Below are positions 775-24,786 of a stretch of DNA of 25,471 nt, piece by piece; position 1 is the first letter of the stretch, and the number at the start of each line of letters is the position of its first letter. A program made the position numbers and the translations under genes. Under the pieces are notes generated by a model that did no database searches, was not told where the DNA came from, and saw only the letters and a program-made list of their open reading frames with translations. Location: positions 163,546-189,016 of the forward strand of contig NW_003145285.1 in assembly GCF_000003605.2 (NCBI RefSeq), given 5' to 3'. Source of the DNA: Saccoglossus kowalevskii (lineage: Eukaryota; Hemichordata; Enteropneusta; Harrimaniidae).

Positions 775-902
775 CTCCAGATCAGTGGACTACAATACAA
801 ATACATGTAAAGATGTTTAAACTATTGGTGAATGAGTTGTCCAATGCCGTAGAAACTAATATGTCAAGACAGGCGTCAGCAGGTGGTGAAGACTTGGATG
901 AA
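775..902 (+). CDS. IPO9: IPO9 exon (fourth from the end)
   Basis: The acceptor follows a pyrimidine-rich stretch ending in TTTCAG (AG at 773-774); the donor is GAA|GTGAGT. Two bases complete a codon begun in the exon left of the window. It encodes 42 residues, starting PDQWTTIQIH and containing KLLVNELSNAVE, the last helical repeat before the acidic segment. Confidence 0.9.
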
Positions 903-3300
903 GTGAGTCTGCACTCTGGACAGTGTTGCTGTAGCTTTAAAGTTGTAGTCATTGTATGAATGTATGTGAAATATCACTTCAAAAACGAAGCTAAAAACAT
1001 ACCATGTGTTAAAATGATGGTTTGCCGATTCGTAAAAGTAAAGATCCTGTCCTGACCTTTCAACACCATTTCATTTTGAGAGTACAAGGCAAAGATACAA
1101 CCTTCAAGTTTGGACAAAGCCTCAATTCATGTTGTCGATTTCCAGTTACCCATCCACAACCTCAAAATGTTGGGGTGCATATACATGTAATTGTCAGGGA
1201 ATTATGCCTCACAGAAATGAATGCAACTTTAAAGATGAATGTGTTTTAACTTAAATAGAAGCGACTTCCTCATGGCATTGAGCCTCTTTCTTTTGTGGTG
1301 ACAATTGATAACATGCAGTAGTTGGCGGTACCCTTGAACTGTCTGTCTAGGGAAAATCAAAAATTTGTCGGTCATATCCATTCGTTATGATGCTTTACCA
1401 TGTTGTGTGTTGTTAGGCCAGACTAAAAAAAAAATTCCTTGTTCATCAGATCCGCTCACACCTGCCAAATTTGTGCAAAAATCACTTGATGTTGGTGGCA
1501 ATGGTGGGACTTAGGGAGTTGTGTGTTTTCCAACCGCATTCATTGCCATTGTTCGCCGCTGTTGTGATCATCTGCTTCAATGTATGCAATATGAGTATGA
1601 AAATTTAAAATTGGCAAAAAAAAGAAAAAAAGAAATTCACTTGCAAGGATATTGGACAAAACAACACAAGTAAAACATTGCATAATGAAATTCAAATAGT
1701 AGTATGATAATCTGCTTCAATGTTTGCAATATTTGCTTGCACTTCAATGTTATACAATAAAAATCTAATTGTTTTGAAGATTTTTTTTGGATCTAATGGC
1801 AATGTACAAAGGACAGTGTAGACTACTGGTAATTTTTCTGCATGGCAACATACATGGAACTGTGTTAATTGATTTTAGAGTCAATAGAATAATTTCAACA
1901 TTGTTAACTCTGTTAACAGGATGAAGGATGGGATGACTGTGAAGAAGACGATGGAGATGATGAGACTGAAGGCCAAACGTTAGAAAGTATGTTGGGAATG
2001 TTTGCTCCAGCCACAGATTTTCCAGGTAACCAGCTTATCTGCTCTATTCCATACATGGCCTAGCTATTCTGTGGTCCGCAACGCTGTGCACTATATATTA
2101 ACCAGTATAGGCCAGATTGGTGTAGGCAAACAAATCAGTTGAATTACGCTCGCTTGTCATGAAATCTACAAATGAAAATAAATAATTGACCAATGGAGCC
2201 GGTTATCTTTTGATTCAATCTTGACTCAGTATAAGTGTACATCTCTCGTGTTTCTATCCAGGTTATGATTTTGAATGTGACGATGATGAGGAAGATGACC
2301 CTGATGCTCTCAACGACCCGATTTATCGAATGGATATGCAGGTAATGGGAAGTAACAACAGGTTCATAGTGCCACCAACAGGTTCATAGTGCCACCAACA
2401 GGTTCATAGTGCCACCAACAGGTTCATAGTGCCACCAACAGGTTCATAGTGCCACCAACAGGTTCATAACACCACCAACAGGTTCATAACACCACCAACA
2501 GGTTCATAGTGCCACCAACAGGTTCATAACACCACCAACAGGTTCATAGTGCCACCAACAGGTTCATAACACCACCAACAGGTTTATAACACCACCAACA
2601 GGTTTATAACACCACCAACAGGTTCATAGTGCCAACAGGTTCATAGTGCCACCAACAGGTTCATAGCGCCACCAATAGGTTCATAGCGCCACCAATAGGT
2701 TCATAGCGCCACCAATAGGTTCATAGTGCCACCAACAGGTTCATACCGCCACCAACAGGTTCATAGCGCCACCAACAGGTTCATAGCGCCACCAACAGGT
2801 TCATAGCGCCACCAACAGGTTCATAGCGCCACAAACAGGTTCATAGCGCCACAAACAGGTTCATAGCGCCACAAACGGGTTCATAGCGCCACAAACGGGT
2901 TCATAGCGCCACCAACGGGTTCATAGCGCCATAAACGGGTTCATAGCGCCACAAACGGGTTCATAGCGCCACAAACGGGTTCATAGCGCCAGCAACAGGT
3001 TCATACCGTCACCAACAGGTTCATACCGCCACCAACAGGTTCATAGCGCCACAAACAGGTTCATATTGCCACCAACATTAGGTCAACACGTAGTCATACA
3101 TGTATGTTGGCTTATTTGCTTATCTGGCTTGGCTTGCATATGGATGCTAACACAGATTATTCTTTTAATTCTTTTGGTAGGCTTATTTAACGGAGTATTT
3201 TCAGCGGCTTTCACAGCAGGACTGCTATAGAGTTGTCTTCATACCTAATTTAAATGACAATGAGAAACATGCGCTGATTGCGGCTGGTATCCCAACATGA
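775..3300 (+). CDS. IPO9: Importin-9, C-terminal part (last four exons; gene continues left of the window)
   Basis: Importin-9 is a karyopherin-beta nuclear import receptor; known cargoes include histones H2A-H2B and ribosomal proteins. Four exons join in frame: 775-902, 1920-2025, 2262-2341 and 3181-3300, with AG/GT boundaries and phases 2-0, 0-1, 1-0 and 0-stop. They give the last 143 whole residues. Diagnostic stretches remembered from vertebrate IPO9 are present: KLLVNELSNAVE (family KLLINELSNVME), EEDDPDALNDPIY (family EEDDPDALKDPLY), QAYLTEYFQRLSQQ (family QAYLTDFLCQFAQQ) and LNDNEKHAL near the end. Between the first two lies an acidic loop rich in D and E, as expected in this protein. 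It ends at TGA 3298-3300 after AAGIPT, close to the vertebrate C-terminus. Earlier exons are outside the window. Alignment was by eye. Confidence 0.93.
903..1919. other. IPO9 intron without visible genes
   Basis: GTGAGT donor to TTAACAG acceptor. It contains A-runs around 1617-1640, two related passages with ATCTGCTTCAATGT at about 1570 and 1711, and the second copy of the 17-base word shared with the preceding intron. The 75-codon ORF at 1022 has no recognisable features. Confidence 0.6.
1920..2025 (+). CDS. IPO9: IPO9 exon encoding the acidic loop
   Basis: The acceptor is TTAACAG (AG 1918-1919) and the donor is CCAG|GTAACC. The exon starts in phase 0 and leaves one base for the next. It reads DEGWDDCEEDDGDDE and then LESMLGMFAP, matching the E/D-rich segment followed by a short hydrophobic stretch in vertebrate importin-9. 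Confidence 0.88.
2262..2341 (+). CDS. IPO9: IPO9 exon with the EEDDPDAL motif
   Basis: The acceptor is CTATCCAG and the donor is CAG|GTAATG. Two bases complete a glycine codon, then 26 codons follow. The reading contains DDDEEDDPDALNDPIYRMD, almost identical to the remembered vertebrate sequence. The donor lies 19 bases before the minisatellite starts. Confidence 0.92.
2361..3077. repeat. 20-bp minisatellite, 36 tandem units, in the last IPO9 intron
   Basis: The unit is GGTTCATAGYGCCACCAACA. Units 1-13 run without a break from 2361 to 2620; unit 14 is shortened to 17 bp (2621-2637); 22 more units run from 2638 and the last is interrupted by TTAGG. Variants are grouped by position: GTGCC and ACACC in the left third, GCGCC with AATAGG in the middle, GCGCCACAAACGGG further right, and CCGCC near the end. 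The array fills about 717 of 839 intron bases (2342-3180). The unit length is not a multiple of three, so it is non-coding. Confidence 0.98.
3181..3300 (+). CDS. IPO9: IPO9 terminal coding exon
   Basis: The acceptor is TTTTGGTAG. Thirty-nine codons and TGA follow. The reading AYLTEYFQRLSQQDCY, then NLNDNEKHALIAAG, fits the conserved importin-9 C-terminus, which in vertebrates ends shortly after LNDNERRVL. Confidence 0.92.
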   Translation, partial: AYLTEYFQRLSQQDCYRVVFIPNLNDNEKHALIAAGIPT

Positions 3301-4187
3301 TGAGTCCTTTGATGGGAGAACTGATGTTTCCATGACGGCCAAGTTGCACAATTGGTGACAGAACAATCGAGAACAGAACACCAAGTCATATTCATCTCCG
3401 TGGAATGGTTTCATGTCTATTTATTTAATAGTTTACCAGTTTTGCCCAATTTAAAGTAAAACGCTGGTTACTTGAAATGTGCAGTCAAGTTTACCCGTGG
3501 AATACATTCCTTGGACGAGGTGCTATTCGCTTGCATAATTGTAAATGATTAGGATAAAGGATTTTGTATATATTTTGTAAAATTATCTCATGTTATTGTC
3601 ATGTACCTTTCTATATGCGATGAGATGCTGATTAATTTAAATGAAGCTGCACGAGAGATAGTGATCATACCCTGTAACCTATAAATTCCATGCTTGTCAA
3701 GAGATCTAGCAAAGTTCCAGGAATTGGGTCTTGGTTGAAAAAGTCTATTAGTGAAAACAATTGTAGCACAAACGTGATTGATTTTTGTCATCAACTCCAT
3801 CTTGATGTAAAGGTTACTTGACTGCTTCACAGAACACTGATGTTGTAGTATTTAAACTTGAAGGCTCGTTTGCCAGGGGACTTAAACCATGGCGAAAAGC
3901 AAATTTGTGATCACTTGCTGTCAGGTTTCATTTACATGACAGTGAATAAGTAGTTTGTTTTTATAATTAGTGCAGGGTAGCATTATTCTGAGAAACGATA
4001 CACGTCACATTCTGAGCTGCATTATTCTGAAAACCTGTGCCATGCAGTGTTTATTACATTGCTGAACAGTTCGGGGAATCAATGCAACATCGCATTGCTT
4101 CTAAGAATCTGTGTAGTGTAGCATTACTGCATTATTTTAGTCATTAGTGAAGACCCATTAAGGAAAGAGAGATGTACGAAGAGATTG

Positions 4188-8104: not shown

Positions 8105-11100
8105 CTAATGTGATTGGTTCCGGCATCTCCTAGTGGGTTTAGCTGGATTCTCCGGCGACGTGTCTCTGCTACTGTTGGTACCCTCCAATTCGTCCTCCTC
8201 GATATGTGTAATGCTCTTCCACTTGTACTGTCTGGTCTTACCACGTTTGATGTACGTTGCAATACCAGGTACTTTGCACTTATTCGCATCTCCACCAAAC
8301 GCAATTGACAAATTGTCTTTACTAGTGGGCGTAACATTGTTTGATGTTGCATTACTAATTTGTTTCTTGGCAGTGTCAGTATACCTTGCCTGTGAACACA
8401 ATTCAGATGAAGTGCTCTCATCATCAGACTTTCTATTTTTAACCAGAACTGATTTTTTGTGTGCATTGTTACCATCTGATTCTGGTTGTTTTTCATTAGG
8501 ACAGGGCACACCATTATGGTGTGCTCTTTTGATATCTAAATCTTCCTCTTCGCACTCAACTGCCTCGACTTTATGAGAAAGAATGCACGTCTTGGAACGT
8601 TTACTATTAGAATTAACAGATACTCTAGAGCGTTTGCGTACATCTGGCCGACAAGCCTTCACCTGGGATTTATTAGGTGCGCTATTTCGTTCTGGAAAAC
8701 TTGGGAGACTTTTTTCTGTTTTAGTATGACTAACTTTCTTTCGATTTTTTTTTCTGGCCTTTGACGGGGCAAATCGATTTTTTCTGACCCTTTTTTTTCT
8801 TTTTGTACCTTTTTTAGGATGTTTCATTCCTTCATCAACTCCTATTGTTATGTTATTTGCTAACTGAGCTTTGTTCTGGTTGAATTCCTTTCTTTGCCGA
8901 GTCAATGGAAGCTCAAATTTACTTGTGGGTTGACAAGCCTCGTCCCCAATATTAAGGGATTTTTCATCACCATCTGTAATCGGCAAGACAACACTGCTTG
9001 GTTGGTCAGCTTTATCGGTTTTATGAAGAACAGTTTTCTCCAAAAGTATTTTTTTACAAGGTGGTTCAAATGTAGTGTTACCGCAAACTGAGGGTTGTAG
9101 TGCGGCTGTTTCTGATGCGACTTCCTTCATGTACCGCTTGTTACTTTTCTGACTAGTGTTCTGGTTTAGAGTTGAGTCATTATTTGAAATGTCTAATTCA
9201 GGGTTGTCATTTTTGGTGTCAATTATTGCACAACGTTTTTCCGTGGAATAACTTCCAAGAGATTTTCGGGCAATAGAACTCGCCCTTGAAGACTGTCTCA
9301 CACCTGACTGGTGAGACTCTAGAAATGTTGCCCATGATTTTTTTGTTTTTTGGCAATTTTCTGGCTTTTTGTCAATATCATTTATTTCTAATAAGTTATT
9401 TTTCACTGTTGTGGAACAATTTTTACATACTGGCTTCGGTTCGTCTTGACTGTTTGCACATGTAGCAATCTCATTAGTCACAAGTGTTTTATTATTTTTC
9501 TCCGCTGTGGAATGATTTTTTTGCACTGGTATTGGTTCATCTTGACTATTTACACATGTAGTTGTGTCATTTGTCTTGAGAGCCTTTCTATTTTTCACCC
9601 TCTTGGAACGATTTTTTCGTACTGGTACCGATTTATCTCGACTATTTGCACTTGCAGCAAAGTCATTAGTCTCACTTGTTTTGCTATTTTTCACTGTTGT
9701 GGAACAATTTTTTTGTACTGGCACCGGTTCGTCTTGACTGTTTGCACATGTAGCAATCTCATTAGTCACAAGTGTTTTGTTATTTTTCACTGTTGTGGAA
9801 TGATTTTTTTGCACTGGTATTGGTTCATCTTGACTATTTACACATGTAGTTATGTCATTTGTCTTGAGAGCCTTTCTATTTTTCACCCTCTTGGAACGAT
9901 TTTTTCGTACTGGTACCGATTTATCTCGACTATTTGCACTTGCAGCAAAGTCATTAGTCTCACTTGTTTTGCTATTTTTCACTGTTGTGGAACAATTTTT
10001 TTGTACTGGCCCCGGTTCGTCTTGACTGTTTGCACATGTAGCAATCTCATTAGTCACAAGTGTTTTATTATTTTTCTCCGCTGTGGAATGATTTTTTTGC
10101 ACTGGTATTGGTTCATCTTGACTGTTTACACATGCAGTTATATCATTTGTTTTGAGCACCTTTCTATTTTTCACCCTCTTGGAACGATTTTTTCGTATTG
10201 GTACTGATTTGTCTTGACTGTTTGCACTTGCAGCAGAGTCATTAGTCTCAGACGTTTTGCTATTTTTCACCGTTGTGGAACAATTTTTTCGTACAGGCAC
10301 CAGTTTGTCTTGACTGTTTTCACTTGGAGAAATGTCATCAGTCTTGGACGTTTTGTTATTTTTCACCTTTGTGGGACAATTTGTTTGTACTGGCATCGGT
10401 TCGTCTTGACTGTTTGCACTTGCAGTAGTGTCATTAGTCACAAATGTTTTGTTATTTTTCACTGTTGTTGAATGATTTGTTTGTACTGGTTCATCTTGTC
10501 TGTTTGCACATGTAGTTATGTCATTTGTCTTGAGCACCTTGCTATTTCCCCCCCTCGTGGAACGATTTTTTCGTACTGGTACCGATTCGTCATGACTGTA
10601 TGCACATGCAGTAATGTCACTAAGCTCAACTGTTTTATTTTTCACCGTTATGTTACAATTTTTTTGTTCTTTTACTGGTTCATCCTGGCAATTTGTTTGA
10701 GACATACCAACAGTTTCTACAAAAGAGAGAAAACAGCTCTCGCCTTCTGAACATCCTGTTAGCCTTGCCGGAGAGCATGTTTGCTCAGAAAGACATGAAT
10801 AAGGAATTTCTTCTCTGTTAGGACAATCACTCACTTTTATATCTACCTCATCACTAGGTCTACATGAATCAGTAACGCTTTTGTGTTCTTTTTCTTCCTG
10901 TGAATTTTTAAATACCTCATCCTGCTTTTCAGGACTACTGCTACTATGAGCTGATATCAAATCATTCTGGTTGGTAGCATCCTCACTCTGACACGAGTTC
11001 AAATGTACCAATGAAAGATCAATTTCACACAATAGATGATGATCCTCTGCCTCACTGTTCTGCAGTTTGTCTTCGTTGATTGGTGATGTCAAATCACTGT

Positions 11101-13243
11101 CACCACCACTCGTATCAGGACAAGAGGCATCGGATAAGATCTCAAAGATGTTACCTCTAGAGTTTGTTTGATTGTCTGTTTCAATCATGTCATCTGAAAT
11201 GACTTCATCAACGTCGCTATCATCACTGTTTGACTGACACAAACGTGCTAACCATATGCATGTTGAACCGACATCCTCATCATTTTCCTCCTTCACACAC
11301 ATCGACTCTCCTGAATCATTATCCACTTGTTCTGCAATGCAAGTTTCTTGTGGTTTAGAACAACTTTTTTCTTTTTTGTCATTGTCAGCAATTGTCACAT
11401 TAGGTTCTTCGGGACTAGATTCTGTCACACGAGTACCTCTGTTAACATTGTTATTACCATCCTTGTGACGTCGTGGTGCATGAAAATTACCAGCATTGTC
11501 CGAGGAGCTCTCAGCAATAAAAGTACGTGCAACAACAGAATATTTGGAATGTCTCTTATCATTGTTCGATGACTGTTCTGCTTCTAGAGGCTGCCTGTCA
11601 ATGTTTGATGAGTGTAATGACACTTGATGCCCCTTTTCACAGACATCACTAACAATGAAATTTACATCATCAACATTGCTCTCAGTTCTCAGAACTTGTA
11701 ACCCTGACAACGCATCATTATATTCCCCAGGCTGCAAGTGTTCCACATCAATAACATTATGAGCAGAATCAACAACATTTATCTCCCCAACTTCCATCAT
11801 ACTGCCAGAGTTTTCTTTCACTTCATCAACTATACAAAGATTTTTTCCAATTTTTAATTCTGGTTCATGACATGTAATGTCTTGATGTGTATCGTCATGA
11901 ATATTTAAATGCGCTTCTGTGTCATTCATGGATTTAACGGAAGAGTTGGAGATTGAACATACTTTCCCTGAAGATATTTCCTCACATTGAGATGCATCTG
12001 CAAGTTCATAGTTTGTTTCAGATGCTTTGACTTTCTTATCAACTATAACCATCTCCCCATCTTCACATGTTTTATCAGAGAGAAACATATCTATGTTGGA
12101 TGCATCTTTGCGAGAACAGGTCAATGCACTATGTAGAATTTCATTTGTAACCTCTGCAAGAATTTGATCTCTCTCGACAGACAATTCACCTGGCAAATTG
12201 ACAGTAACATCATCAGCAGCAAGAACAGGTAATTCCAACTTTTGAGTTTCACAGTGATTATCAAGATCATCTATTTCTAAAAATTTCTCTTCACAATGCA
12301 AGGTTTTGTCATCAGTATCTGTTAAAACTTCTTGCCATTGTTGATTGTCTGATTTTGTTTGAGAAGCTTGTTCAGTGCTAGACGTTTGAGTAAACATATC
12401 AACTCCTGAATCTGTCAAGTTAGCATTGCTTATTGATTTTAAAAATGTCTTTGGCTCTGATATAGATGAATTCTCAGCAGCAACAGAAGTCTCAGTAGTA
12501 ACAGAACTGTGATTTTGGCTGCTAAGATCGTCATCGCCATCAACAACTACAATGTCGCTTGGTGCATAGTCATAGTCACAGATTGTTTCATCATCAGAAG
12601 ACTTCGCATCATGGACTACAACATCTGCATCAACAGAAGATCTGCCACTACTTGTAGAGCCATTGGGCAAACCAGATTTACGTGACTTATTCTTCTCGTA
12701 GCTTCCTTGAAGCAGCATGGTCCTCTGACATCCGCTAGGTTCACCCTTGGACTTTCTACCCCTTGAACTGTTTTTACCTTTCACGGTTTTCGGTTTAGAT
12801 TTATTTCCTTGACTGATCTGAGTTCCCTGAATATCCAACAGTGACAGTAGCTGTTTTTCTATATCTTTATCCCACATGTTGTACGGACTGACAGTGATGG
12901 GTCTCAAATTCCTAAAGCAGTGCACTAACTTAGCTCGCATTGTGGATGGCAGCACAGGCCAGATAGCTTGCTCATCAGAAAGACCCAGCTCTTCCGCAGA
13001 AGTACTATAAATCTGTTTCAACCAATTAAATGATTCCATTTCTGGATGAAGCATGTAGTACGTCATAGCGCTATCCTTAAATAGATCCAAATCTATCTGT
13101 TGAAACAACGTGTTGAGAATCTTGATAACGTCTTGGTTGCTTCTCCTCTTCTGCCATCGGTTCATTTGACTGTCTCGAACATTGAGTTCCCTAACTGTGC
13201 TAAGACACAGTTCAGCAACAACTTCCGTCACCTCTTTTAGAAG
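8105..13243 (-). CDS. Exon 6 of the ZNF292/RLF-like gene (5139 bp; 1712 codons plus stop)
   Basis: The acceptor is TGATTTTGCAG and the first residues are LLKEVTEVVAELCLSTV. The first ~130 codons finish the conserved helical region: AELCLSTVRELNV, DLDLFKDSAMTYYMLHPEM, WPVLPSTMRAKLV and MWDKDIEKQLLSLLDIQ match the ELC, DLEVKRA, PNSLRCELL and WDWKTLKRQCLALM landmarks of ZNF292. The remaining ~1580 codons are low-complexity. They contain acidic and hydrophobic SIM-like cores, T/S-Q motifs, a 32-residue tandem array at 9388-10700, K/R clusters at about 8735-8825, and the C-terminus RCRNQSH. A single uninterrupted exon encoding the tail is also the gene structure of vertebrate ZNF292 and RLF, where that exon carries the zinc fingers. 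Confidence 0.92.
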   Translation of the reverse strand, partial: LLKEVTEVVAELCLSTVRELNVRDSQMNRWQKRRSNQDVIKILNTLFQQIDLDLFKDSAMTYYMLHPEMESFNWLKQIYSTSAEELGLSDEQAIWPVLPSTMRAKLVHCFRNLRPITVSPYNMWDKDIEKQLLSLLDIQGTQISQGNKSKPKTVKGKNSSRGRKSKGEPSGCQRTMLLQGSYEKNKSRKSGLPNGSTSSGRSSVDADVVVHDAKSSDDETICDYDYAPSDIVVVDGDDDLSSQNHSSVTTETSVAAENSSISEPKTFLKSISNANLTDSGVDMFTQTSSTEQASQTKSDNQQWQEVLTDTDDKTLHCEEKFLEIDDLDNHCETQKLELPVLAADDVTVNLPGELSVERDQILAEVTNEILHSALTCSRKDASNIDMFLSDKTCEDGEMVIVDKKVKASETNYELADASQCEEISSGKVCSISNSSVKSMNDTEAHLNIHDDTHQDITCHEPELKIGKNLCIVDEVKENSGSMMEVGEINVVDSAHNVIDVEHLQPGEYNDALSGLQVLRTESNVDDVNFIVSDVCEKGHQVSLHSSNIDRQPLEAEQSSNNDKRHSKYSVVARTFIAESSSDNAGNFHAPRRHKDGNNNVNRGTRVTESSPEEPNVTIADNDKKEKSCSKPQETCIAEQVDNDSGESMCVKEENDEDVGSTCIWLARLCQSNSDDSDVDEVISDDMIETDNQTNSRGNIFEILSDASCPDTSGGDSDLTSPINEDKLQNSEAEDHHLLCEIDLSLVHLNSCQSEDATNQNDLISAHSSSSPEKQDEVFKNSQEEKEHKSVTDSCRPSDEVDIKVSDCPNREEIPYSCLSEQTCSPARLTGCSEGESCFLSFVETVGMSQTNCQDEPVKEQKNCNITVKNKTVELSDITACAYSHDESVPVRKNRSTRGGNSKVLKTNDITTCANRQDEPVQTNHSTTVKNNKTFVTNDTTASANSQDEPMPVQTNCPTKVKNNKTSKTDDISPSENSQDKLVPVRKNCSTTVKNSKTSETNDSAASANSQDKSVPIRKNRSKRVKNRKVLKTNDITACVNSQDEPIPVQKNHSTAEKNNKTLVTNEIATCANSQDEPGPVQKNCSTTVKNSKTSETNDFAASANSRDKSVPVRKNRSKRVKNRKALKTNDITTCVNSQDEPIPVQKNHSTTVKNNKTLVTNEIATCANSQDEPVPVQKNCSTTVKNSKTSETNDFAASANSRDKSVPVRKNRSKRVKNRKALKTNDTTTCVNSQDEPIPVQKNHSTAEKNNKTLVTNEIATCANSQDEPKPVCKNCSTTVKNNLLEINDIDKKPENCQKTKKSWATFLESHQSGVRQSSRASSIARKSLGSYSTEKRCAIIDTKNDNPELDISNNDSTLNQNTSQKSNKRYMKEVASETAALQPSVCGNTTFEPPCKKILLEKTVLHKTDKADQPSSVVLPITDGDEKSLNIGDEACQPTSKFELPLTRQRKEFNQNKAQLANNITIGVDEGMKHPKKGTKRKKRVRKNRFAPSKARKKNRKKVSHTKTEKSLPSFPERNSAPNKSQVKACRPDVRKRSRVSVNSNSKRSKTCILSHKVEAVECEEEDLDIKRAHHNGVPCPNEKQPESDGNNAHKKSVLVKNRKSDDESTSSELCSQARYTDTAKKQISNATSNNVTPTSKDNLSIAFGGDANKCKVPGIATYIKRGKTRQYKWKSITHIEEDELEGTNSSRDTSPENPAKPTRRCRNQSH

Positions 13244-16200
13244 CTGCAAAATCAAACAAAAATGGAAATTTACAACTTTAGTATGAGCAATTATGCATCC
13301 AATCTAAAACTACAGCACTTATAACAAGATGTTGATGACATTTGTGTCTCGTTTTGAGACAACCAGTAATTGCATTACATAGTCTTCATGAACTCTTCAT
13401 GAGTTCTCAAGTTTGAGGAATATATCAAGTTTGAACATGATCAGCCAATGAACCAAAGCATGTCAGAAATAGGGCTCCAGGAACGACATTATTTTAAAAC
13501 AAAATACTCCATCTGTAATCAAAATTAACAAGTCATGATGCTTTAATTCAAATTAAATTGCATTTAACGATGACTACATATTGATTATGTATCAAATATT
13601 GAATACTGTGACATCTTGTTATGTTAAAGCGCGGTGGTCGTCACGCAGCACGTGTTTGAATTTCATGTAAATAAACAATGTATACGTTGCTACGAGTCCC
13701 ATATCGAACAAGACGCAACGCTACGACTGTGGCCCTTTAATATCTGGACATGTCTTGGAATAAATGCATTTTTAGCCACAAGCCTTGTTTTATATAACAA
13801 ATTTTATGGATTTTTTCAATATAAAGTTTGGTGAGTGAATGAACATATAACTGTGTCCTTCTGAAATTTGCTACATGTGAACAGTGTCTATTTATTAAAC
13901 TGTATTACACTTGTAAGATGTGGAAATGAATGTAGTTGACATAGAACGCCCCAATTTAGGTAATACTATTGATGAAATGTCAGCAAAGTTTAGTCTTCAC
14001 ATCCCTGTTTGTAATTGCATCAATATAAACAAAAATGTTGTATTTCTTGCCATTGAGGGCATTTTGCATTAAATATGTGCAAAGGTCAAATTATTTGATT
14101 TAATTGCCGCGCCGGTTCTTGTGATTATAATGATGTTTTGACTAAAAAGTACTATACTATATTCAGATGTGTTAAATTTTAGGACTTGGTCAGCATACCT
14201 TTTCCACTTTTTTGCTCATTTTGAATATTTAATTACATGTAGATTGAGTTTACAAGTCGTTTGAAAAGTCGTATTTCTGTTATTTGAAAGAGTCAACAAC
14301 AGATTGTGATGTGATGAGGCCAACAAATAAATTCTTAGTTTCCAGTACCCCGACCTGCTAATTTCAGGTTTTTTAATGTTAATAAGCTCAAAATTATTTA
14401 CAGTAGTATTTCATGTTTTGATTACATGTCTGGTACATTATTTTGTGCATGTGTCCCAATGAAAAAACAAAACTAACAAGTCATTTTTAACGCCAGTCAG
14501 CCATCTTGAATTGAATCAGTAAACCACTGCATTGAATGAACAGATTTGTTCCACAGGGTCATGTATTCAACCCTCCCCCCACCCCTCAACAATGTGTATA
14601 AGTTTCCCCAATTTTCAACGTTCTGCATCTTGAATGAAAATATGGGTCCGAGACTCGAGGGGAGACAAATAATCATNNNNNNNNNNNNNNNNNNNNNNNN
14701 NNNNNNNNNNNNNNNNNNNNNNNNNNNNNNNNNNNNNNNNNNNNNNNNNNNNNNNNNNNNNNNNNNNNNNNNNNNNNNNNNNNNNNNNNNNNNNNNNNNN
14801 NNNNNNNNNNNNNNNNNNNNNNNNNNNNNNNNNNNNNNNNNNNNNNNNNNNNNNNNNNNNNNNNNNNNNNNNNNNNNNNNNNNNNNNNNNNNNNNNNNNN
14901 NNNNNNNNNNNNNNNNNNNNNNNNNNNNNNNNNNNNNNNNNNNNNNNNNNNNNNNNNNNNNNNNNNNNNNNNNNNNNAAGTTGAGTCAGCTCGAGTCTCA
15001 AGAACAAAATAAATTTGCATGTGAATCGTGGCCCGTGATTCTTTTGTATTTACTTATTTTGTCTATAAAATGTCAACTTAATTTTACAAAATTACAAGTA
15101 TAGTGAGATTTGTGTTCAAGATCACTATATCATTGAACTATTTTCTGTCACAGCAAATCTTCATGGGTCAGTGGCACGCTGTATCGACTTAGAGGGCACA
15201 CTGCGTGTAACTGTAAAAACAGTCTTTCATTTATTAAATATTTTAAGGTGATGAACACAATGCATATAAAATGTAATGTTATAGTTAATGCAAAAATGCT
15301 TGCCAAAACAAGAGGATACAAGTATAACATAACATACTTACACTTAACGGTAAACAGGAAATGATACTTCTTACAAAATCACACACTACGCTTTTCTTAT
15401 AGGTTTTGCAGATCTCGATGAGACAGGACACGCGGTCTTTTATTTCTGTGTGGTCCTCCTTGCAGTGGTTTATCTGAGCGTCAAACCACACTGTTGACAG
15501 ATCTTGAACACAGTCACAGGGTTTTTTTCGTTCCCAGTACATCAAGAGAGCTAGTGTGCTAATATGTACGGCAGCACCACTAAGATCTACATTTCGAAAA
15601 ATCTTCACCAAATCCAAAATTTCGCAGCACGATTTGCTGTCCAACTATGAGAAAAAACAAACAATTCAAAACAAGTTCTGTAGAATTCCCAAATTAACTG
15701 CTACACATATGACAAACAAGTCATTGTCAATGACATAGTCCCTGTATGAATTTAGTGTAATTTTTGAGTACGTGGAATGTGAAAAAACGATTGTAAAAAA
15801 ATTTGCCTAGCTGCAGTGTATATGGGAATTTATAATGAATGTATATTACGTCAACAGTTACAACAGTAAACAACATTTACATCCTGGTTGCTATAGCAAC
15901 CACATATCATGCAACTTTAACAAAAGACTAGTTACCTGTCGTAGATAAAACACTTACCTCATGTTTCACAGACTGCCAATACTGCTGTTTACACATAAGG
16001 TAAACGGCCATTCGAAAAAATATACCATCCTTTCCTAGTTTAGGATGATCAGCGCAGCATTTGGCAAGATGAAGGGCTTCCTCAATGAGGTCATTGGCAG
16101 TCAACATTTTAATTCTTTGTGACATTAGTCGCGGTCCTTCTTGAGACACAAATCCGAATGCTGTAGAGTGAAAGAAACGAGTCATGAATGACCGACAGAG

Positions 16201-19200
16201 TCAGAAAAAAACAACTTCATTTTTAGTGTTTTACATGCAGTTGCTATAGTTACCTTCTTCCTCCATAACCGGTATTCCAGAGACTATTTTAACAAGCGCA
16301 GGATTAGTCCAGGCAGACATCACCAGGTCAGCACATACTTTAAATCTGTCCCCAACAATACTATGATACGTTTTATCAGCCTTCATATATAGGTCACATA
16401 GGTAAGTTTTACTTGATTCAGGCAAGAGGATTTCATACCCTTCATGCAGTATTAGCTTTTCAATATAACTGCAAATAACGTGGGAAAAGAAATTAATATT
16501 TTTGACAATTGTTTAAGATGAATACTGTGGAATACTTTATTTTCGCTTGGAATTAATTTTCACTATTTTCGCTGAAGGAATGATTCAGCGAAAATAAAAT
16601 CCAGCGAATATACCTTTTTTCCTATAAACCTGTCAAAAATCAGTGAAAATAAATTCCATACAAAACACCAAAAAAAAGTCTATTTAGCGAAAATTAAATC
16701 CAGCTAAAATAAAATATTTTACAGTAACTATCACTTGGCAATCTAGGATTCATTGAAAATTGAAACACAACAAATCTACATAACAATGTTTTGGAACTCA
16801 ATGCAAATGACTGGGGTAAATATCAAGACCAAGTACTTTTAAGATAAGAATATTTTCATACCCATGTATGGTGATATGCAAATTTTGACATGTGTCAAAC
16901 CAAATTCACTCTGACCAATAGGAGAGTATGAACTTGGAGTTTAGAGGGCACCCATATTCAAGGCTATAATTTATAACATAGGAAAACTATTATAGCCTTT
17001 GCAAATCAATGCACCAGAACTGTAAGATCATCATGCTAGGCAAGTGTTGAATTTAAATTATTAGTTTTCATAAATTTTGTAATACTAGGGGATTTTCCCG
17101 TTCATCTCGCGTAATGCATGAAAAACTTCTGTCGCTAAATTCAAATGAATTGATTTTTAACTTCTCTTTTTTATAGTTCAGTGACAATCTTTTAGAGGGC
17201 AATATAACGTTGAGATACCATGACTTCATCACAATGTGTATAGAAATAAAAATAGGGGAAATACCCAGAAACACTTTCGCACTTGTTGAATCCCATGTGA
17301 TGTGCTGAAACCACTAAGACACTATGAACTTTGTTTGTCCTTTATTTAGATTCAATTTCTATAATACTATAACGCAGAATCTTGCAGTATACAGAAAATG
17401 ATCTACTTGTTGATATATGCACCAGCATGCAATATACACCGGAACAGTATGACATCATGCATACCAAGTTTCAAAATGATGAGTGCACGTGTGTTTAAAT
17501 TTGGAGAAGAACAGTGTATAAATTGTCATCACTCTGCATTAATATATGCATAAAATACGCATACAATTGACACCTATTTCCACCAGATCTGTATGGAGCA
17601 CCACATACCAAATTTCAAAATGAAGAGTGTGGAATTTCTTATAGATATGATACTGTACAGACACTGGTAACCACTATATGCCCGATCAGTACTACATGAC
17701 ATGGGGGGACAACAAATCCTTGATGAAACTTATTAGAGAACAAAAAAAGACAGAAATGTACATGTACTTACTCAACCAGTTCCGGTATAAGTGCTCTATA
17801 CTGTTGACAATCATTGTCCAGTTTATCAGAAAGCTCTAGTAGATTAAATATGATGTGGTTGCCAAGGTAAAACTGCTGACTCACAGACACTGGGGGACAT
17901 GTATAAAATTCCTAAACAAGAAAATAAAGATATAGTGAAAGAATTCAACCAAATTCACAACAAGACAAATATTGTTTGATTCTGACTTGTACATAAACAG
18001 GTTTTTGTTTTTAGAAAAAAACTGCAAGAGGGAGCACTGAAATTCAGCGGCACCACCAAGTGCAGGAGATAGGGTTCTCCCTACCAGGGTGTGGAGTTTT
18101 TGATAATTCTAAGTTAAAATGGAGCATTCTATGGCTTCCTTGGGTCCAAAATCAGACTTGTCACAGTTGATCCCTGGTCAATCAGAATTTTATGATTGAC
18201 GGGGGATCTGCTCCGCAGTGTAAGGGGTGCATGGCCATGGCATGAGGGCACCACGCCCTTGTTCCCTTGTTTAACCACCAAGTGCAGGAGATAGGGTTCT
18301 CCCTACCAGGGTGTGGAGTTTTTGATAATTCTAAGTTAAAATGGAGCATTCTATGGCTTCCTTGGGTCCAAAATCAGACTTGTCACAGTTGATCCCTGGT
18401 CAATCAGAATTTTATGATTGACGGGGGATCTGCTCCCCAGTGTAAGGGGTGCATGGCCATGGCATGAGGGCGCTGCGCCCCTGTTCCCTTGTTTAAAAAA
18501 ATCCCTGATAAATAAATCTTTTCACAAAATCCCATTGTGGATAGAATCGACTCTGAATCAAATATTAATATAATTGTGATACAGTATAACAACAAAATTT
18601 GTCAGATTTGACTTAAATTCACAATTATTTGAGCTGGAATCACAATCCCTCAACATCACATGTGAACTGTTACTAGCCAATGGAATGTTGGATAATGCAT
18701 ACAGCAATACAAATTTTAACCAAGCATCAAGTCAACTTTTGGCACCATCCGCAAAACAGTTCCTTTCATAGTCTGCACTTTTCGACAGGAATTGTTGACA
18801 AAAATTTCAAATTTTTTGATCAAAAACTAGAAGCAATGTCCCATCTGGTCTGTTTGGCCCAAAATTAAGATCAAGATAAGATTTGAACAAATTTACCCCA
18901 TTTAGAGAAAAAAATTTGGAGCTCAAGGGTTAAATAGAATACTAAGCAGATACTGTAGAAAAAGAACTATTCACAGGAATTAATTTTATCCGATTTCATC
19001 AAGTTATAATGAATTATTGTAAATTCAGTGGCTTGTGAGTGAAACAATACATTCCATACTTCAACAAATAATAAACTCTTATACAGTAACGCAATGAAAT
19101 ACACAAAATAAGAAGGGCTTTGGTTTAATAGGTTGCTTCTCAGCCAGTCTGCCTAATTTGCATATCCATGAGCCTCACTCTAGCATTCAAAAGGCCCAAA

Positions 19201-22200
19201 CTATCAAGGTTGAAATAATGAATCACACAAGCATTGACAATGTACAATTGTAACTTGGTATTACTGGTAGTCAATCTCAGTGTTCAATACAAGTCACATC
19301 CCTACCAAAAGGGCTCCATGCATCACCTGCATGCAGTATGACTGGAAGCACATACACTGACAAAATGTAGTGATTATAAGAAACTAGCATAGCATGACCC
19401 CCCCCCCCCCAATACAAAGTTTGAATGAAACAAGTCATTGTCAATGACAAGTCCCCGTCCAGTTTTTAGTGAATGTCTACATTGGTTCCAAATAATTATT
19501 TACACGCATGTGACAGACATGATACAAAGTGGAACCACTTTATTTGTGTCACTCTTTCCTTTATTTTGTCCATGACATTCATAATGCACTTCTAGCATGA
19601 AAATGACAATCGGCCATTTTGAATCAGATTTTAAAACAGATGCATGTGCAAATGTATTACATGATATATGTGTAAAGTTTGAACATAATCAGTCCAGCAA
19701 TGTTGATAATATGGCTCCAAAAACAGCATTTTGTTAAAAACAAAATGGCCATCAGTCAGCCATTTTGATTCAAATCTGAAAAAAAAAATGATGAGGACCC
19801 ATTATATTTAATGGACATACACAGTTTGAACATAATATGTCCCATGCACGACTGAGATCCAGTTCTGGAATGGCAGAAATGCAGGATTTTTAGTGTGAAG
19901 ACAGCGTACAGTTCGATTCATGTACGATTGGAATACAATGGACATACAATTGATACTCCCATTGGAATACCTACCTATAGTTCACGCAAATGTATATAGC
20001 AATTTGCGCCAATTTAACAATATTTTTTTGCGAGAAAATAGGAATCAATTTAGTGTTTTTCACAAGCATCAAGGTTATAAATACTTTCATAATGTGCATG
20101 ACAGTTGTTTGACTTGTCTACAAATGCACAGAAGGTCAAAGGGCAAAGAATATAAATAAAAACATCGTCAATGTCCTTGTTTCAAATATTTTAGTTTTTT
20201 ACCAATGAGTGGTGATAATTTGAGACTATATTTTTTTTTACATGTTATTCATGTTCTTTTAAACATATTTTTGCGTATTTCGTGTATTTCTATTTCTATT
20301 TTATATCTACACTTCCAATGTGAGCGAGACTGTGACTATTTATAACCATGATTTTCACCAAAAAAATTGGTTAACCTCTATCTTTCTACACAAAAATATT
20401 GCTATATATAAACATTTGTGTAAATTATAAGTATTTCAATCTTACATCTATTGTACGCCAATCATATGTCAATCATACGTGAATCAAATCGCACACACAC
20501 TTGTTGATTTCGAAAAATTTTTAGCACTAAAATGGCCACAATTCAGCCATCTTGAATATGATCATGAAACAAATACATGTGTTTATATATGATATTATGT
20601 GTGATGTACGTGTAAAGTTTGAATGTGATTGATCAAAGCATGTCAGAGATATGACCCTAAAACTGCAAATGGATGCACATAGGCAAAATTACAAGTCCCC
20701 ATTTTTCAGACTATGCGCGCCCAGGGACTAATTAACCTGTTCATCCCGGAGAAGTATTTCTGAAAGTACATACTACAATCAAACCTGTCTATAAAGGACA
20801 GTCAGTGGACTGAGGCAAACTGTCCTTTACAGACAGGTGGAGGTGGTCTAATTTATTTATTCAACCATGAATATAAATTAGGGCGGATATTTTAAGGGAG
20901 ATCATAAGCAAAGCATAAAAACAAACCTACACATTGTACAATGAATAGATCTCTTTTAATAAAAGTCACTTATTTTCATCTGGATAATTACACAGCTTTA
21001 CCTTTTTACTACAAATTATATCATGTACAATCACTGAAACCAAAATTGCCGTGTTTGAAAAAACAAACAAACAAGCATTAAAAATGAAGAAGCATTGGTA
21101 ATAAACAAAATTTACCAAATTCATAACAATTGCTCCAACTCTCGGTGTTGAATCAGTAAGTCAAACGAACTGGAAATGAAACATGATGATCGTTCACGCA
21201 GTTATACAGTTTTTTGTTGCAAGCATCGACGTGTCAAAACTGCCCAAACGAAACGAATTTTCTCGTTTATAAAAAAAAGAGCATCAAAATAAAAAACATC
21301 TTTCGTTGAGAATAACCCCGAGATGACCCCTCAGTAACAATACGTTTTGCCCATGCGCTAGCTTCATTAGCATAATTTATAACGATCAACAACAAACAAC
21401 ATGGCGGCTTAAATAAGTCGGATTTTGCAATCCCGCGATGAAAACGAAATAAACAAATGTTTTATTATTTTGTTTGGATATTTCATGTCGACAAGGTAAA
21501 TAAAACATCTCTCATTTAATAAAACTGGTTAATTTTTCTTGTTTTCGAGATGGAGGAATTTGCTCTTCATGTGCGAGACAGTCCACAGAAGTGATGCTGG
21601 CCGGCTGGGGAACGATAGTATAGTACCGATCGGATACAAGCTAGTTTTTCATTTCAAACTTTGTTTTAATTTGTTATTAAAATCTTTCCAGTCTACAGAA
21701 GTTACTTTCAGATGATATTCAACTTTTTTTTTTACTTTTTCGCAACTTCACAAACCAATTTGCGATGGTCACCCCTGTCTATTAGCCCTAAAGAATGCGT
21801 ACTCTGTAATCTGAACGTAACATATGGCCACTTTCCTGTTAGCGATTAGCAAGTAGCTATTGTCTTTTTGCTGAGACCGTCTGATGGAAATGTTGGTGGT
21901 CGTTATACAAAGGTTAAAGGGTGAATAGGTCTACAATAGGGTGGTCGCTGGTCGCTTTGGACAGGTGGTCGCTATATCCAGTGTCTTTAACATGTAAATT
22001 GCGAAGGGACTGTACTAAGGCTGTCGCTATGAGCAGGTGGCCGCTCTGCACAGGTGGTCGTTAACACAGGTTTGACGAGTTACCCAATTCACGCGAGCCA
22101 CAATAAACATTGTACTCTTGAATAGACGTCAGTGACTACTAAAAACCTAAATTAGACTCTTAACTTAAGCTTCAGGAAAGATTGAAATATTTGAAAAATT

Positions 22201-24786
22201 ACACCTAAACTAGAGATTTTATAGCAAATGAATAAGTAAAGCATTTTATTAGCCTTCATCAGTCAGTACTCAGTCTGATGTACAATACCGAAATGATTAG
22301 TCCCGAGATTCACACATCTCGTTGTCTTATCTGCCGTATTGCCGGGACCATGCGCTGCTACTGAAATGGCTTCTATATCACGACCCCATTTTTTCACCCA
22401 ATTAAAATTAAAAAGGTTGCAAGACAAGGTTTCAAACATCACTGTCAAAAAGACATCTTGACACGCTGGCTGCGTGACAGTGTAAACAAAACTCTGTCCA
22501 ATAAAAACGCTACAAAATGTCGACTTTGTATCGACTTGTTGGACATTCCACATACAATAAAATTTGCATGTCGAGTGTCGGCCTGAATTCAGTGGTTTGC
22601 CAGACCCATAAGGCTTCGTTTTGTTAGTGATTGCTAGCAACGACTTAAAATAATTGTTCGTCGTGAATAGTTTGTGCATCACAATGATTTTTTTATTTTG
22701 CGATTATTTACAACTGATGTACTGGGTAATTTGTAATGACACAGAATGTCATTTATATGTCCCTTAAACAGCCACGGTTGACACGAGTCTATGACTGCAC
22801 ATCTGGTGATCTGGTGGATATTCTAATTGCTTTACATCGCATTTACGTGCATGTGTAAAACAACACCTTTGTTGAGAGAGTGACGGGAAAAATCGGGCGA
22901 TTTCCTCACTGGACGAACTGCTAATTTGAATCGAATTATTTGAGTGGCCGAATTGATTGAGTTTTTATGGTATGTTTTAAGCAGACCCGTGAATTCTCAA
23001 TGGAAGCAGAATTAGTTATTCTGGGGTTTTCCAAAATTGTAAGCAAATATATAGCAAATGAATTTTCCTTTTTAGTGACAAATGCACAGTGTCAAATTAG
23101 AATTAATTTCCTTGTTTCAAAGATGAAATTAAATTTATAGTGTCAGCCAGCTAGCTAGCTAGCCATCATGTATTGTTCATTGCATCAGCTGTTAATATAA
23201 TAAACCAACCCAAGCCTTGGAGCCTAGATTAAGGCAGGATACAAAGGAATATACACATACGGATTTTAAATGTATACAAAGAGGTGGGGAAGGGGTACCA
23301 ATTAATTAATTTATCAAAGTTACTTATGGGAGTGGTAAGGTTAACCTGTACAAAATTTATTATTTATCTCAGTATAGATATTTCTGCTAATTCATATGAA
23401 CATGTAAAATAACAATAGAACTCTTTGTTTTCTTGCAAAATTTGTGAACTTAAAGTGCTAGTGAAATGCCTGCCAACAGATTTGTTTTGGTTTTTTTGGT
23501 TTATATTGCACTGAAATGGGCATTTGTTTTTAAAAAATAAATAAAAATTAAATAGTAGTCAAGATCAATCAAATAAGGAGTACATTTCTGACAAATAAAT
23601 AGTGATTCTATTTTATTTCCGCGATTATTAAACAGTTGGTATAGCAACATTACATTGCAACATGCATAGCCAATTAAGAATAAGGTTTATACTCAGAAAA
23701 CAAGAAGTCTTGTTTCACTCCAAACTATCATGATAAAAGTTCATCAGAAATCTAATTTTACACAACAAGCTGGTGATCTTACACATCAAGTATTACACAC
23801 TGAATATATGTACTATGGCAGTAATTTAGGATCACAATAACAAAAGTCAGACACAGAGCAAATAGTCGTTTTTATCTCTTTCTCTGCGAGACGACATTTT
23901 ATTGTTAATTGTAGGTATAACTATCTCTCAGTGATATTTAAATTCAGTAAATACAGTGTACAGCAATCGTCTGTACCGAAGTTGTATGTACTTCACGGTT
24001 TTCTATAGTATACTGGGTTTATATAAGCCTAACTTATAGCCTAACAAATTCCTGTTGCAAGTGCCCCTGGGGTTGGGTTATCCAAACTACACACACTTTT
24101 GTTTTATTTGGTCCTATCCCAGCTCTGGAACCCCTACAATGTAGGGTGTGCAAATGACTACAGTGCACACGAATACAAAGGTCCGACTACAATGATCATC
24201 AGGGTATATGCAATCGTGTAAAATACTACAAGTCAGCTGAATAATCTTATTGGCATATCTAGGGATACCGCCCCGCCCACCTTCAAGATGGCGCCAACGG
24301 ATTACCATCTTAACCACGTGACCAGGCTGAAATATTACGTGCAAGTACGCGATCTCCGGCGATTCCCGTTCAAATACATAATAACCACGTGTAACAATAA
24401 CAACAAAGCACTGTACACAATCACCGTGGTCAAGTGTTATCAGTCGAGTGTCGCAAGATTTGAACCAGGTTTGCTTTATTGCAATACTTAAGGAGAACCG
24501 TCGCTAGCAAATGAGAATTGTAAAAGAACAGGTCAGGTTCGTCCGTTAAATGAGTTTCACTGGCTCACTTGACCTCTAACCAATCGAGCGTAAAACGTTT
24601 GATTTTCTTTAACCGTACCTTGGCAATCACGGCGATGTACCTTTTGGTAAAACCATCAATATCCGTGAGGGTTCGATATGCATGCGTAACTGACAGGATG
24701 TTTTCTACAGCTTGGCGAAATAGGCTATTTGCGTTCCAAATCTCCTGGTCCTCTTCAAAACGCTCTTCAGCGTCGTTGTCCGCCAT
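8105..24786 (-). CDS. Large nuclear protein with ZNF292/RLF/ZNF654-type N-terminal region, no zinc fingers (six exons, ~2055 aa)
   Basis: Exons in order: 24786-24619, 17911-17772, 16468-16254, 16160-15958, 15644-15342 and 13243-8105. All introns are GT-AG and phases agree (0,2,1,0,0), giving 2055 residues and a TAG stop. Residues 1 to about 475 align by eye, in order, with the N-terminal region of vertebrate ZNF292 and RLF: AWTNPALVKIV (family VWKNPVLCTIL), QEGPRLMSQRIKML (family FEGPILLDMRIKHL), LAKCCADHPKLG (family LAKLCSDHPEIG), then DLFKDSAMTYYML and LPSTMRAKL. The remainder is S/T/N/D/E/K-rich and probably disordered, with SIM-like motifs (about 550-880), 32-residue repeats (about 1191-1629), basic clusters (about 1817-1846) and a C-terminal segment around VPGIATYIKRGKTRQYKW. 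I see no C2H2 finger. Vertebrate relatives are DNA-binding zinc-finger proteins, so a nuclear chromatin role is inferred. Orthology versus lineage-specific paralogy is undecided. Confidence 0.85.
8735..8825 (-). other. Basic NLS-like cluster (residues ~1817-1846)
   Basis: Reads KKGTKRKKRVRKNR followed by SKARKKNRKK. Dense K/R runs separated by a short spacer fit a bipartite nuclear localisation signal and possibly nucleic-acid contact. More K/R-rich motifs follow at RKRSRVSVNSNSKRSK. Confidence 0.7.
9388..10700 (-). repeat. Coding tandem array: thirteen 32-residue (96-bp) units in a 288-bp higher-order repeat
   Basis: Type units are NDITACVNSQDEPIPVQKNH (type A, ending NNKTLVT), NEIATCANSQDEP (type B, ending KNSKTSET) and NDFAASANSRDKSVPVRKNR (type C, ending KNRKALKT). 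Their order from the N-terminus is roughly C, A, unclear, B, C, A, B, C, A, B, C, A, B, followed by a decayed end. Unit 2 lacks two residues; units 1-4 are the most diverged. The identical word GTAGCAATCTC at 9462, 9750 and 10038 shows the exact 288-bp period. The frame is kept throughout, so the array is translated. No known domain recognised; the units are polar, with conserved NSQDE or NSRDK. Confidence 0.95.
12520..12630 (-). other. Acidic SUMO-interacting-motif-like sequences (residues ~550-582)
   Basis: DVVVHDAKSSDDE and, shortly after, DIVVVDGDDDL (residues 573-582). Both have a short hydrophobic core of V/I flanked by D, E or S, which is the standard SIM pattern. Further weaker candidates in the same tail are MVIVD (741-745), LCIVDEV (812-818), INVVDS (831-836) and FIVSD (872-876). 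Functional binding is inferred from pattern only. Confidence 0.45.
12836..13243 (-). other. End of the conserved helical region (residues ~344-479)
   Basis: Residues from LLKEVTEVVAE to LLSLLDIQGT. Hydrophobic periodicity suggests helices. The D-L-x3-x-A...L-x-P...P-x2-S-x-R-x3-L...W-x6-L-x-LL landmarks match the last part of the ZNF292/RLF N-terminal region. Low-complexity sequence begins immediately afterwards, at SQGNKSKPKTVKGKNSS. Confidence 0.75.
13320..13520. repeat. Dispersed repeat family, degenerate copy
   Basis: Contains GTTTGAACATGATCAG and, further on, GCATGTCAGAAATAGGGCTCC and AAAACAAAATACTCCATC. The same words in the same order appear near 19678-19760 (GTTTGAACATAATCAGTCC, ATGGCTCCAAAAACA, AAAACAAAATGGCCATC) and near 20617-20670. 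It is an old interspersed repeat of unknown class. Confidence 0.55.
13624..13740. mobile_element. TTAA-bordered short inverted-repeat element (117 bp)
   Basis: Begins TTAAAGCGCGGTGGTCGT and ends, read inverted, TTAAAGGGCCACAGTCGTAG. The right arm, inverted, continues as GCGTCTTGTTCGATATGGGA. A related fragment at 25051-25114 carries TAAAGGGCGGTGGTCGTCGC and GCGTCCTGTTTCATATATGG, intermediate between both arms, so this is a dispersed family. TTAA borders suggest a piggyBac-type MITE, but the two arms are imperfect. Confidence 0.5.
14677..14977. other. Assembly gap (301 N)
   Basis: Run of 301 undetermined bases inside intron 5. Apparent ORFs across it are artefacts. Confidence 1.
15342..15644 (-). 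CDS. Exon 5 of the ZNF292/RLF-like gene
   Basis: The acceptor is TTTTCTCATAG and the donor is AAGT|GTAAGT; 101 codons in phase 0. It reads LDSKSCCEILDLVKIFRNVD, then LALLMYWERKKPCDCVQDLS and VWFDAQINHCKED. This is collinear with the ZNF292 stretch running from DCKDALEMICNL to FWSKLQQR. All-helical character is likely. Confidence 0.88.
15645..15957. other. Intron 4 of the large minus-strand gene
   Basis: 313 bp between GT-AG boundaries. Holds ACAAGTCATTGTCAATGACA (about 15715-15735), which recurs at about 19430-19450 followed by AGTCCC in both places. Part of a dispersed repeat. Confidence 0.65.
15958..16160 (-). CDS. Exon 4 of the ZNF292/RLF-like gene
   Basis: The acceptor is CACTCTACAG and the donor is GAG|GTAAGT. 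It encodes AFGFVSQEGPRLMSQRIKML, then ALHLAKCCADHPKLGK and FFRMAVYLMCKQQYWQ. This is the most clearly conserved block: EGP-x8-RIK-x-L and LAK-x-C-x-DHP-x2-G are shared with ZNF292 and RLF. Confidence 0.92.
16254..16468 (-). CDS. Exon 3 of the ZNF292/RLF-like gene
   Basis: The acceptor is TTATTTGCAG and the donor is GAAG|GTAACT. It completes an aspartate codon from exon 2, then reads YIEKLILHEGYEILLP and later DRFKVCADLVMSAWTNPALV. The W-x-NPxL motif is a recognisable family feature. It ends after MEEE in phase 1. Intron 3 downstream is only 93 bp. Confidence 0.88.
16469..17771. other. Intron 2 of the large minus-strand gene
   Basis: 1303 bp. Contains MITE copy 2 (16523-16726); a hairpin with perfect 10-bp arms, AGGCTATAAT at 16961-16970 and ATTATAGCCT at 16989-16998; and two related passages 144 bp apart (ATACCAAGTTTCAAAATGAT at 17461 and ATACCAAATTTCAAAATGAA at 17605). 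No exon seen; the 68-codon minus ORF at 17068 is unsupported. Confidence 0.65.
16523..16726. mobile_element. Palindromic MITE-like element, copy 2 (204 bp)
   Basis: Starts TACTGTGGAATACTTTATTT and ends ATAAAATATTTTACAGTA; the ends are inverted repeats. Same orientation and architecture as the copy at 7286-7488. It preserves the AGCGAAAA and TCCAGCGAATAT motifs better than copy 1. Confidence 0.75.
17772..17911 (-). CDS. Exon 2 of the ZNF292/RLF-like gene
   Basis: The acceptor is TTGTTTAG (minus strand) and the donor is TTGA|GTAAGT. Starts in phase 0 with EFYTCPPVSVSQQFYL and ends in phase 2 within VD. FNLLELSDKL corresponds to the hydrophobic helix after the conserved RPYLTSECE-type segment in ZNF292. 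Shorter than the usual ORF cut-off; found by phase and homology to the family. Confidence 0.8.
18052..18495. repeat. Tandem duplication, two copies of 222 bp
   Basis: Copy 1 is 18052-18273 and copy 2 is 18274-18495, head to tail. They are nearly identical; visible differences are CTCCGCAGTG/CTCCCCAGTG and a cluster of changes in CACCACGCCCTT/CGCTGCGCCCCT. Each copy contains a hairpin, GTCAATCA...TGATTGAC, and the word GCATGGCCATGGCATG. The divergence is small, so the duplication is recent. It lies about 140 bp upstream of exon 2 on the transcribed strand. Confidence 0.95.
19375..19810. repeat. Dispersed repeat family, longest copy
   Basis: Begins near AAACTAGCATAGCATGACC plus a C-run (19398-19410), then ACAAGTCATTGTCAATGACA, GGCCATTTTGAATCAGAT, GTGTAAAGTTTGAACATAAT and ATGGCTCCAAAAACAGC. 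Parts recur at 13320-13520, about 14492, about 15715 and 20520-20700. No coding region. It could be a decayed retroelement or a non-autonomous element. Confidence 0.5.
19892..20501. mobile_element. Fold-back element: long imperfect inverted repeat (~610 bp)
   Basis: The left arm at 19914-19970 (CGATTCATGTACGATTGGAA ... ATTGGAATAC) matches the inverted right arm at 20486-20431 (TGATTCACGTATGATTGACA ... ATTGAAATAC) at about two thirds to three quarters of positions with one gap. Similarity continues inward: CACGCAAATGT...ATATAGCAAT against CACAAATGTTT...ATATAGCAAT, and a shared GGTTATAAATA (20073-20083, inverted at 20347-20337). The centre is near 20200. The ORF of 79 codons inside is a by-product. 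Outer limits are approximate. Confidence 0.65.
20520..20720. repeat. Dispersed repeat family, further copy
   Basis: Contains ATTCAGCCATCTTGAATATG, GTGTAAAGTTTGAATGTGAT and AAAGCATGTCAGAGATATGA, the same order of words as at 19610-19710. The fold-back element lies between this copy and the previous one and may have inserted into a tandem pair. Confidence 0.5.
20779..22075. mobile_element. TIR-bounded region, possible DNA transposon or composite (1.3 kb)
   Basis: The left end is TCAAACCTGT (20779-20788) and the right end is its exact inverse, ACAGGTTTGA (22066-22075). Beside both ends are related subrepeats: GGACAGTC...GACTGAGGCAAACTGTCC with GACAGGTGGAGGTGGTC on the left, and several GACAGGTGGTCGCTATA-type units on the right (about 21938-22065). 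The middle has no transposase and includes a CAACATGGCGGC motif at 21399-21410. It could be one non-autonomous element or two related elements flanking unrelated sequence. Confidence 0.5.
24284..24391. promoter_or_regulatory. YY1-like site and two CCACGTG E-boxes in a GC-richer block
   Basis: TTCAAGATGGCGCCAACG at 24282-24299 matches the AAGATGGCG core typical of YY1. TAACCACGTGACC (E-box 24314-24320) and TAACCACGTGTAAC (24385-24391) follow. The block stands out from AT-rich surroundings and lies about 230-330 bp inside intron 1 after exon 1. A + strand ORF of 67 codons starts at the ATG of the YY1-like word, but no family similarity is seen. It may be an intronic enhancer or an antisense promoter. 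Confidence 0.35.
24619..24786 (-). CDS. Exon 1 (start codon) of the ZNF292/RLF-like gene
   Basis: Begins MADNDAEERFEEDQEI and ends IAVIAK, followed by the donor AAG|GTACGG. The ATG at 24786-24784 lies in CCAAGATGGCGGAC, a strong Kozak context that also resembles a YY1 site. The frame stays open upstream to another ATG at 24942, which would add 52 residues with no recognisable similarity. I prefer the inner start because its context is stronger and an acidic N-terminus is plausible. The segment LFRQAVENILSVTHAY aligns with the FCQTLLEYA-type helix of the family. Confidence 0.75.

Follow-up and report, generated by a model that had tools for sequence, protein, structure and literature searches.

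The minus strand of the stretch of Saccoglossus kowalevskii DNA analysed here (25,471 nucleotides, hereafter the window) carries what is probably a single-copy gene for an RLF/ZNF292-family protein devoid of zinc fingers, a nuclear adaptor with a partner-binding helical module. The widely spaced C2H2 fingers which follow the N-terminal region in proteins of the RLF/ZNF292 type are absent from this gene.

The gene, rebuilt from sequence, comprises six minus-strand exons running from 24786 to 8105, all bounded by GT-AG sites and with compatible phases (Table 1). Their joined coding sequence of 6135 nt specifies 2044 residues and ends in a single terminal stop. The in-frame join of six exons given in the preliminary description of this DNA is confirmed, whereas its count of 2055 residues was 11 too many. 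The last exon carries 5139 of the 6135 coding nucleotides and is open over 1712 codons, compared with a longest frame of 222 codons in 200 order-2 Markov copies of the exon; chance does not account for an open frame of this size. Two 222-bp tandem copies (18052-18496, 97% matches) lie in the long intron that separates exon 1 from exon 2.

Exon 2 is the least certain exon, with a small score margin and the weakest support of the six. Between exons 1 and 3, no segment scores higher for coding than its core (8.35, with a runner-up at 7.19), on a scale trained on the other exons of the same gene, and the best segment of a downstream control stretch reaches 7.73. A search with a strict splice filter returned one candidate, which is not exon 2, and when a provisional ZNF292 segment was used as the query the frame of exon 2 lay outside the top eight.

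Table 1. Features of the gene and of its neighbour, in positions of the window
Feature	Position	Strand	Details
Exon 1	24619..24786	-	168 nt; residues 1-56; donor AAG|GTACGG
Start codon, exon 1	ATG at 24786	-	context CCAAGATGGCGGAC
Exon 2	17772..17911	-	140 nt; acceptor TTGTTTAG, donor GTAAGT; phases compatible with both neighbouring exons
Exon 3	16254..16468	-	215 nt
Exon 4	15958..16160	-	203 nt; stretch most similar to ZNF292/RLF
Exon 5	15375..15644	-	270 nt; PF25580 match begins here (residue 247, about 15632)
Exon 6, giant last exon	8105..13243	-	5139 nt including TAG stop; residues 333-2044
Last-exon part of PF25580 (TPR_Rlf)	12839..13243	-	residues 333-467
Finger-less tail	8108..12817	-	residues 475-2044; mainly disorder-like composition
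Tandem repeats	9397..10681	-	96-nt (32-residue) unit, 13.5 copies
Basic cluster	8735..8803	-	residues 1813-1835; NLS-like or nucleic-acid-binding-like
Importin-9, last four exons	775..3300	+	convergent neighbour; stop 3298-3300; bounds the 3' side

The family assignment is carried by the Pfam profile TPR_Rlf (PF25580), which matches residues 247-467 with 30.2 bits (E 3.6e-7), above its curated cut-off of 27 bits. The alignment spans profile positions 6-213, that is 208 of 226. Taken by itself, the last exon falls just below the cut-off in the Pfam search (26 bits), while the search of the genome gives it 30.1 bits. A second line of evidence comes from alignment to provisional sequences of the human ZNF292 and RLF N-termini, compared with 300 shuffles, which serves as a lead only. 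Residues 1-474 are collinear with both (z 25 for ZNF292 and 30 for RLF), with 22% identity to each. The strongest segment is residues 160-246 (z about 21 and 17); residues 247-474 give z 5.9 and 7.6, the ZNF292 score being reached by one of the 300 shuffles. Residues 1-160 taken alone have no similarity to either provisional sequence (z -0.5 and 0.1). The earlier proposal of a ZNF292/RLF-type N-terminus therefore holds for the main part, where PF25580 exceeds its cut-off; residues 1-160 are without signal. Judged on similarity, residues from about 160 to 470 appear to be RLF/ZNF292-like, the contribution of exons 1 to 3 being less sure.

It is very improbable indeed that residues 1-470 belong to some other helical-repeat family and match TPR_Rlf only through a fortuitous likeness between helices. 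The Pfam score lies just 3 bits over the cut-off and the first 160 residues are silent, as such a reading would have it. However, the E value is low across almost the full profile, the next-best Pfam family for the protein is at E 0.018, and residues 160-246, outside the Pfam match, add signal of their own against the provisional sequences. Other collections return little. With a limit of E 1, the N-terminus matches one solved structure only, an antibody chain (E 0.17), and NCBIfam gives no match at the same limit. In prokaryote contigs, 30 stretches match a pattern from the last-exon domain (query of 141 residues) and none of them encodes a relative. The helical fold of the protein rests on the family, because a single-sequence structure model of the last-exon domain has a mean pLDDT of 43, which is too low for it to be of use.

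Beyond this domain, no finger is found. The strict pattern C-x2-4-C-x12-H-x3-5-H has no match in the 2044-residue protein, and a loose C2H2 pattern has one match, at residue 285 in the N-terminal region, and none in the tail. At E up to 1, Pfam detects no zinc finger in the last exon and no match of any kind in the 1570-residue tail. The tail has one C-x2-4-C pair where shuffles average 5.0, and outside the repeats it has none where they average 3.8. Decayed fingers in the tail were considered and rejected, since these pairs fall below the shuffle mean and show no excess. H-x3-5-[HC] pairs number 10 in the whole tail against 5.7 expected, a count reached by 5.9% of shuffles, and again 10 against 5.3 outside the repeats, reached by 3.0% of shuffles; this slight excess, in one among six patterns, is taken as chance. 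The preliminary description had reported no C2H2 pattern in the tail, and the strict search, the Pfam search and the lack of a cysteine-pair excess all agree with it. Within the limits of a single genomic sequence, the absence of fingers appears real, and DNA binding mediated by fingers would not be expected of this protein because it has none.

Two histories could account for a finger-less member of the family. Lineage-specific loss has about an even chance of being correct: from an ancestor with fingers of the RLF/ZNF292 type, the last exon would have lost all of them, retained a disordered linker-like sequence and then grown by tandem repeats. In vertebrate ZNF292 and RLF, small exons precede a giant last exon in which the fingers sit, and the layout of the present gene is the same, as loss would predict. 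The repeat array also looks recent, with 91% matches between its 288-nt higher-order units (96 residues). Rlf and Zfp292 are described as products of one ancestral gene, both with putative fingers (PMC4381397), which is again consistent with loss. On the other hand, no decayed fingers are seen in the tail, which is short of cysteine pairs, although the mild H-x3-5-[HC] excess outside the repeats leans in the opposite direction to this deficit. Alternatively, the finger-less form could be the older one, with an ancient helical module that acquired fingers solely in the ancestry of RLF, ZNF292 and ZNF654. This seems unlikely, even if a single-copy finger-less gene with no evident finger relics, whose conserved part is the helical part, is what such a history would leave.

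Fingers could also belong to the gene and be hidden from the rebuilt model, either because alternative splicing skips the stop and reaches finger exons, or because an assembly error removed them. Alternative isoforms are possible on genomic sequence alone. Moreover, intron 5 includes an assembly gap (301 N at 14677-14977), the 10 kb on each side of the window read as N, and a six-frame search of the window has its only strict C2H2 match on the strand of the gene and downstream of it, starting at 3380. This explanation is nevertheless very improbable. The gap sits before the last exon, in a phase-0 intron, and the last exon itself is open from end to end. The lone match at 3380 is within chance: order-1 Markov windows contain a mean of 0.32 such matches and 28 of 100 contain at least one. 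The earlier view that the minus strand between 3.3 and 8.1 kb is without fingers is upheld accordingly by a sole strict match at chance level. On the same strand, AATAAA signals occur beyond the stop (7535, 7460 and 7304), and no segment between 3.3 and 8 kb exceeds a coding score of 6.1, a control that leans low since this stretch also served to train the score on non-coding sequence. These signals, the low coding scores and the proximity of importin-9 make finger exons past 8105 unlikely.

This neighbour was recognised by joining four plus-strand exons into a C-terminus of 144 residues, which match solved importin-9 to its last residue (E 1.2e-28); four weaker matches of the same join, at E 2.9e-7 or worse and over join residues 103-139, are to immunoglobulin-binding protein A constructs. 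Importin-9 and the finger-less gene are arranged tail to tail, with stop codons 4.8 kb apart. The last intron of importin-9 harbours a 20-bp minisatellite of 36 copies (2356-3077).

The single-copy status of the gene was examined in the genome from which the window derives (572,110,611 bases in 4830 contigs). PF25580 has a single match in these 572 Mb, which is this gene. Searched with the N-terminal 474 residues, the genome yields six matches at E up to 10, namely the gene's own six exons; this recovery shows the reach of the search for identical short exons and not for diverged ones. The provisional ZNF292 N-terminus yields two matches, the best being exon 4 of this gene (E 2.3e-4) and the second a locus at E 0.16 whose first 600 bases are tandem repeats. 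No finger-bearing paralogue is detected in the genome with these three queries. A vertebrate-like ZNF292 gene should be within reach of the provisional query; a very diverged paralogue could escape it. Residues 475-1188 of the tail match themselves only.

Fission is a further explanation for the missing fingers, which would then reside in a gene of their own within this genome. C2H2 fingers are detectable in this genome, since a provisional ZNF292 finger block of 112 residues, with 150 of 357 candidates scored, gives at least 201 matches within E 10, and so many fingers leave room for a detached finger gene. Fission is nevertheless very improbable. The best match is 39% identical to the block (45.5 bits), and the top four of the eight loci returned are ordinary close-spaced arrays. 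The signatures CRRxF and HEAQH, taken from provisional family sequences, occur in none of the nine loci tested (the eight and L001), and a single C-x4-C finger occurs in one of the nine.

The mitochondrial contig of the same assembly (17,037 bases) encodes 26 predicted tRNAs, including doubtful ones, which cover all 20 amino acids. Its COX1 gene has seven internal TGA codons that need read-through and uses neither AGA nor AGG, with ATA at conserved Ile positions and AAA at a Lys position. Such a code, apparently with TGA as Trp, ATA as Ile and AAA as Lys, would suit a hemichordate-like bilaterian more than it would an arthropod, an echinoderm or a vertebrate.

The tail which stands in place of the fingers is repeat-rich, as the preliminary description had it, owing to the array of 96-nt units listed in Table 1. 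Over 11 units, pN/pS is 0.65 in frame, the two alternative frames giving 0.73 and 1.09, and by class the values are 0.58, 1.14 and 0.20. Purifying selection on the repeats was considered and set aside, this contrast being too weak to argue from. A pattern-based cut of the repeats was also dropped, having yielded two full units only. A simple rule based on composition classes as disorder-like 27 of the 31 windows of at most 50 residues over residues 501-2044, and three of ten before residue 501. Acidic stretches occupy residues 551-700 and 1001-1100. The same earlier description had called the tail SIM-rich, a claim which does not survive the count: with the pattern devised for this analysis there are three SIM-like sites, against shuffle means of 2.0 (global) and 2.5 (local), and as many as three occur in 300 of 1000 shuffles of the global kind and in 461 of 1000 of the local kind. 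A SUMO-binding scaffold built on such sites was accordingly discarded as an explanation, the motifs being not above composition.

The reading of the protein as a finger-less nuclear adaptor combines these features, its mechanism being drawn from family membership. The protein is probably nuclear, as its basic clusters suggest. Its N-terminal helical module of about 470 residues would bind chromatin or transcription partners, in keeping with the family, and the long disordered tail, with its acidic and its basic stretches, would provide a flexible platform. Chromatin would then be reached through partners or through the basic clusters rather than through C2H2 fingers. From the conservation of the helical region we infer that it may represent the shared functional core, as previously suggested. 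A broader version of this idea, in which the helical module is the conserved working part and acts as an adaptor without C2H2 fingers throughout one animal lineage, the fingers being dispensable or later additions, is possible and rather doubtful.

A natural relative without fingers would point to the N-terminal region as a separate functional module, and would offer a way to study this region without finger-mediated DNA binding; the front half of these proteins may do a job of its own that does not involve DNA binding through fingers. No finger-less relative of RLF or ZNF292 appears among the matches listed in searches of the open-licence literature, most of them worded for other questions.

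The known members of the family provide the frame for comparison. ZNF654, the third of them, has the same N-terminal region and a few fingers. The present protein resembles RLF by its TPR_Rlf region, the profile being named after RLF, and by its collinearity with the provisional RLF sequence, which is strongest over residues 160-246. Mouse Rlf is described as a modifier with DNA-binding fingers, through which epigenetic marks are maintained at enhancers and CpG island shores; in vitro, DNA is bound by one of a pair of finger fragments assayed. From human cells, tagged RLF brings down KDM1A, RCOR1, CBX5, MRE11A, RAD50 and NBS1 (PMC4381397). Unlike this gene, which has none, Rlf is predicted to contain 16 widely spaced zinc fingers (PMC4381397). 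Similarly, ZNF292 differs in being listed as a C2H2 finger protein; it is associated with autism as well as with intellectual disability (PMC7034409). It differs also in sequence, the N-terminal region being 22% identical to the provisional ZNF292 sequence. The likeness to ZNF292/Zfp292 lies in the TPR_Rlf region, in the giant last exon typical of the vertebrate genes, and in the fact that, within the whole genome, the provisional ZNF292 N-terminus finds this gene best.
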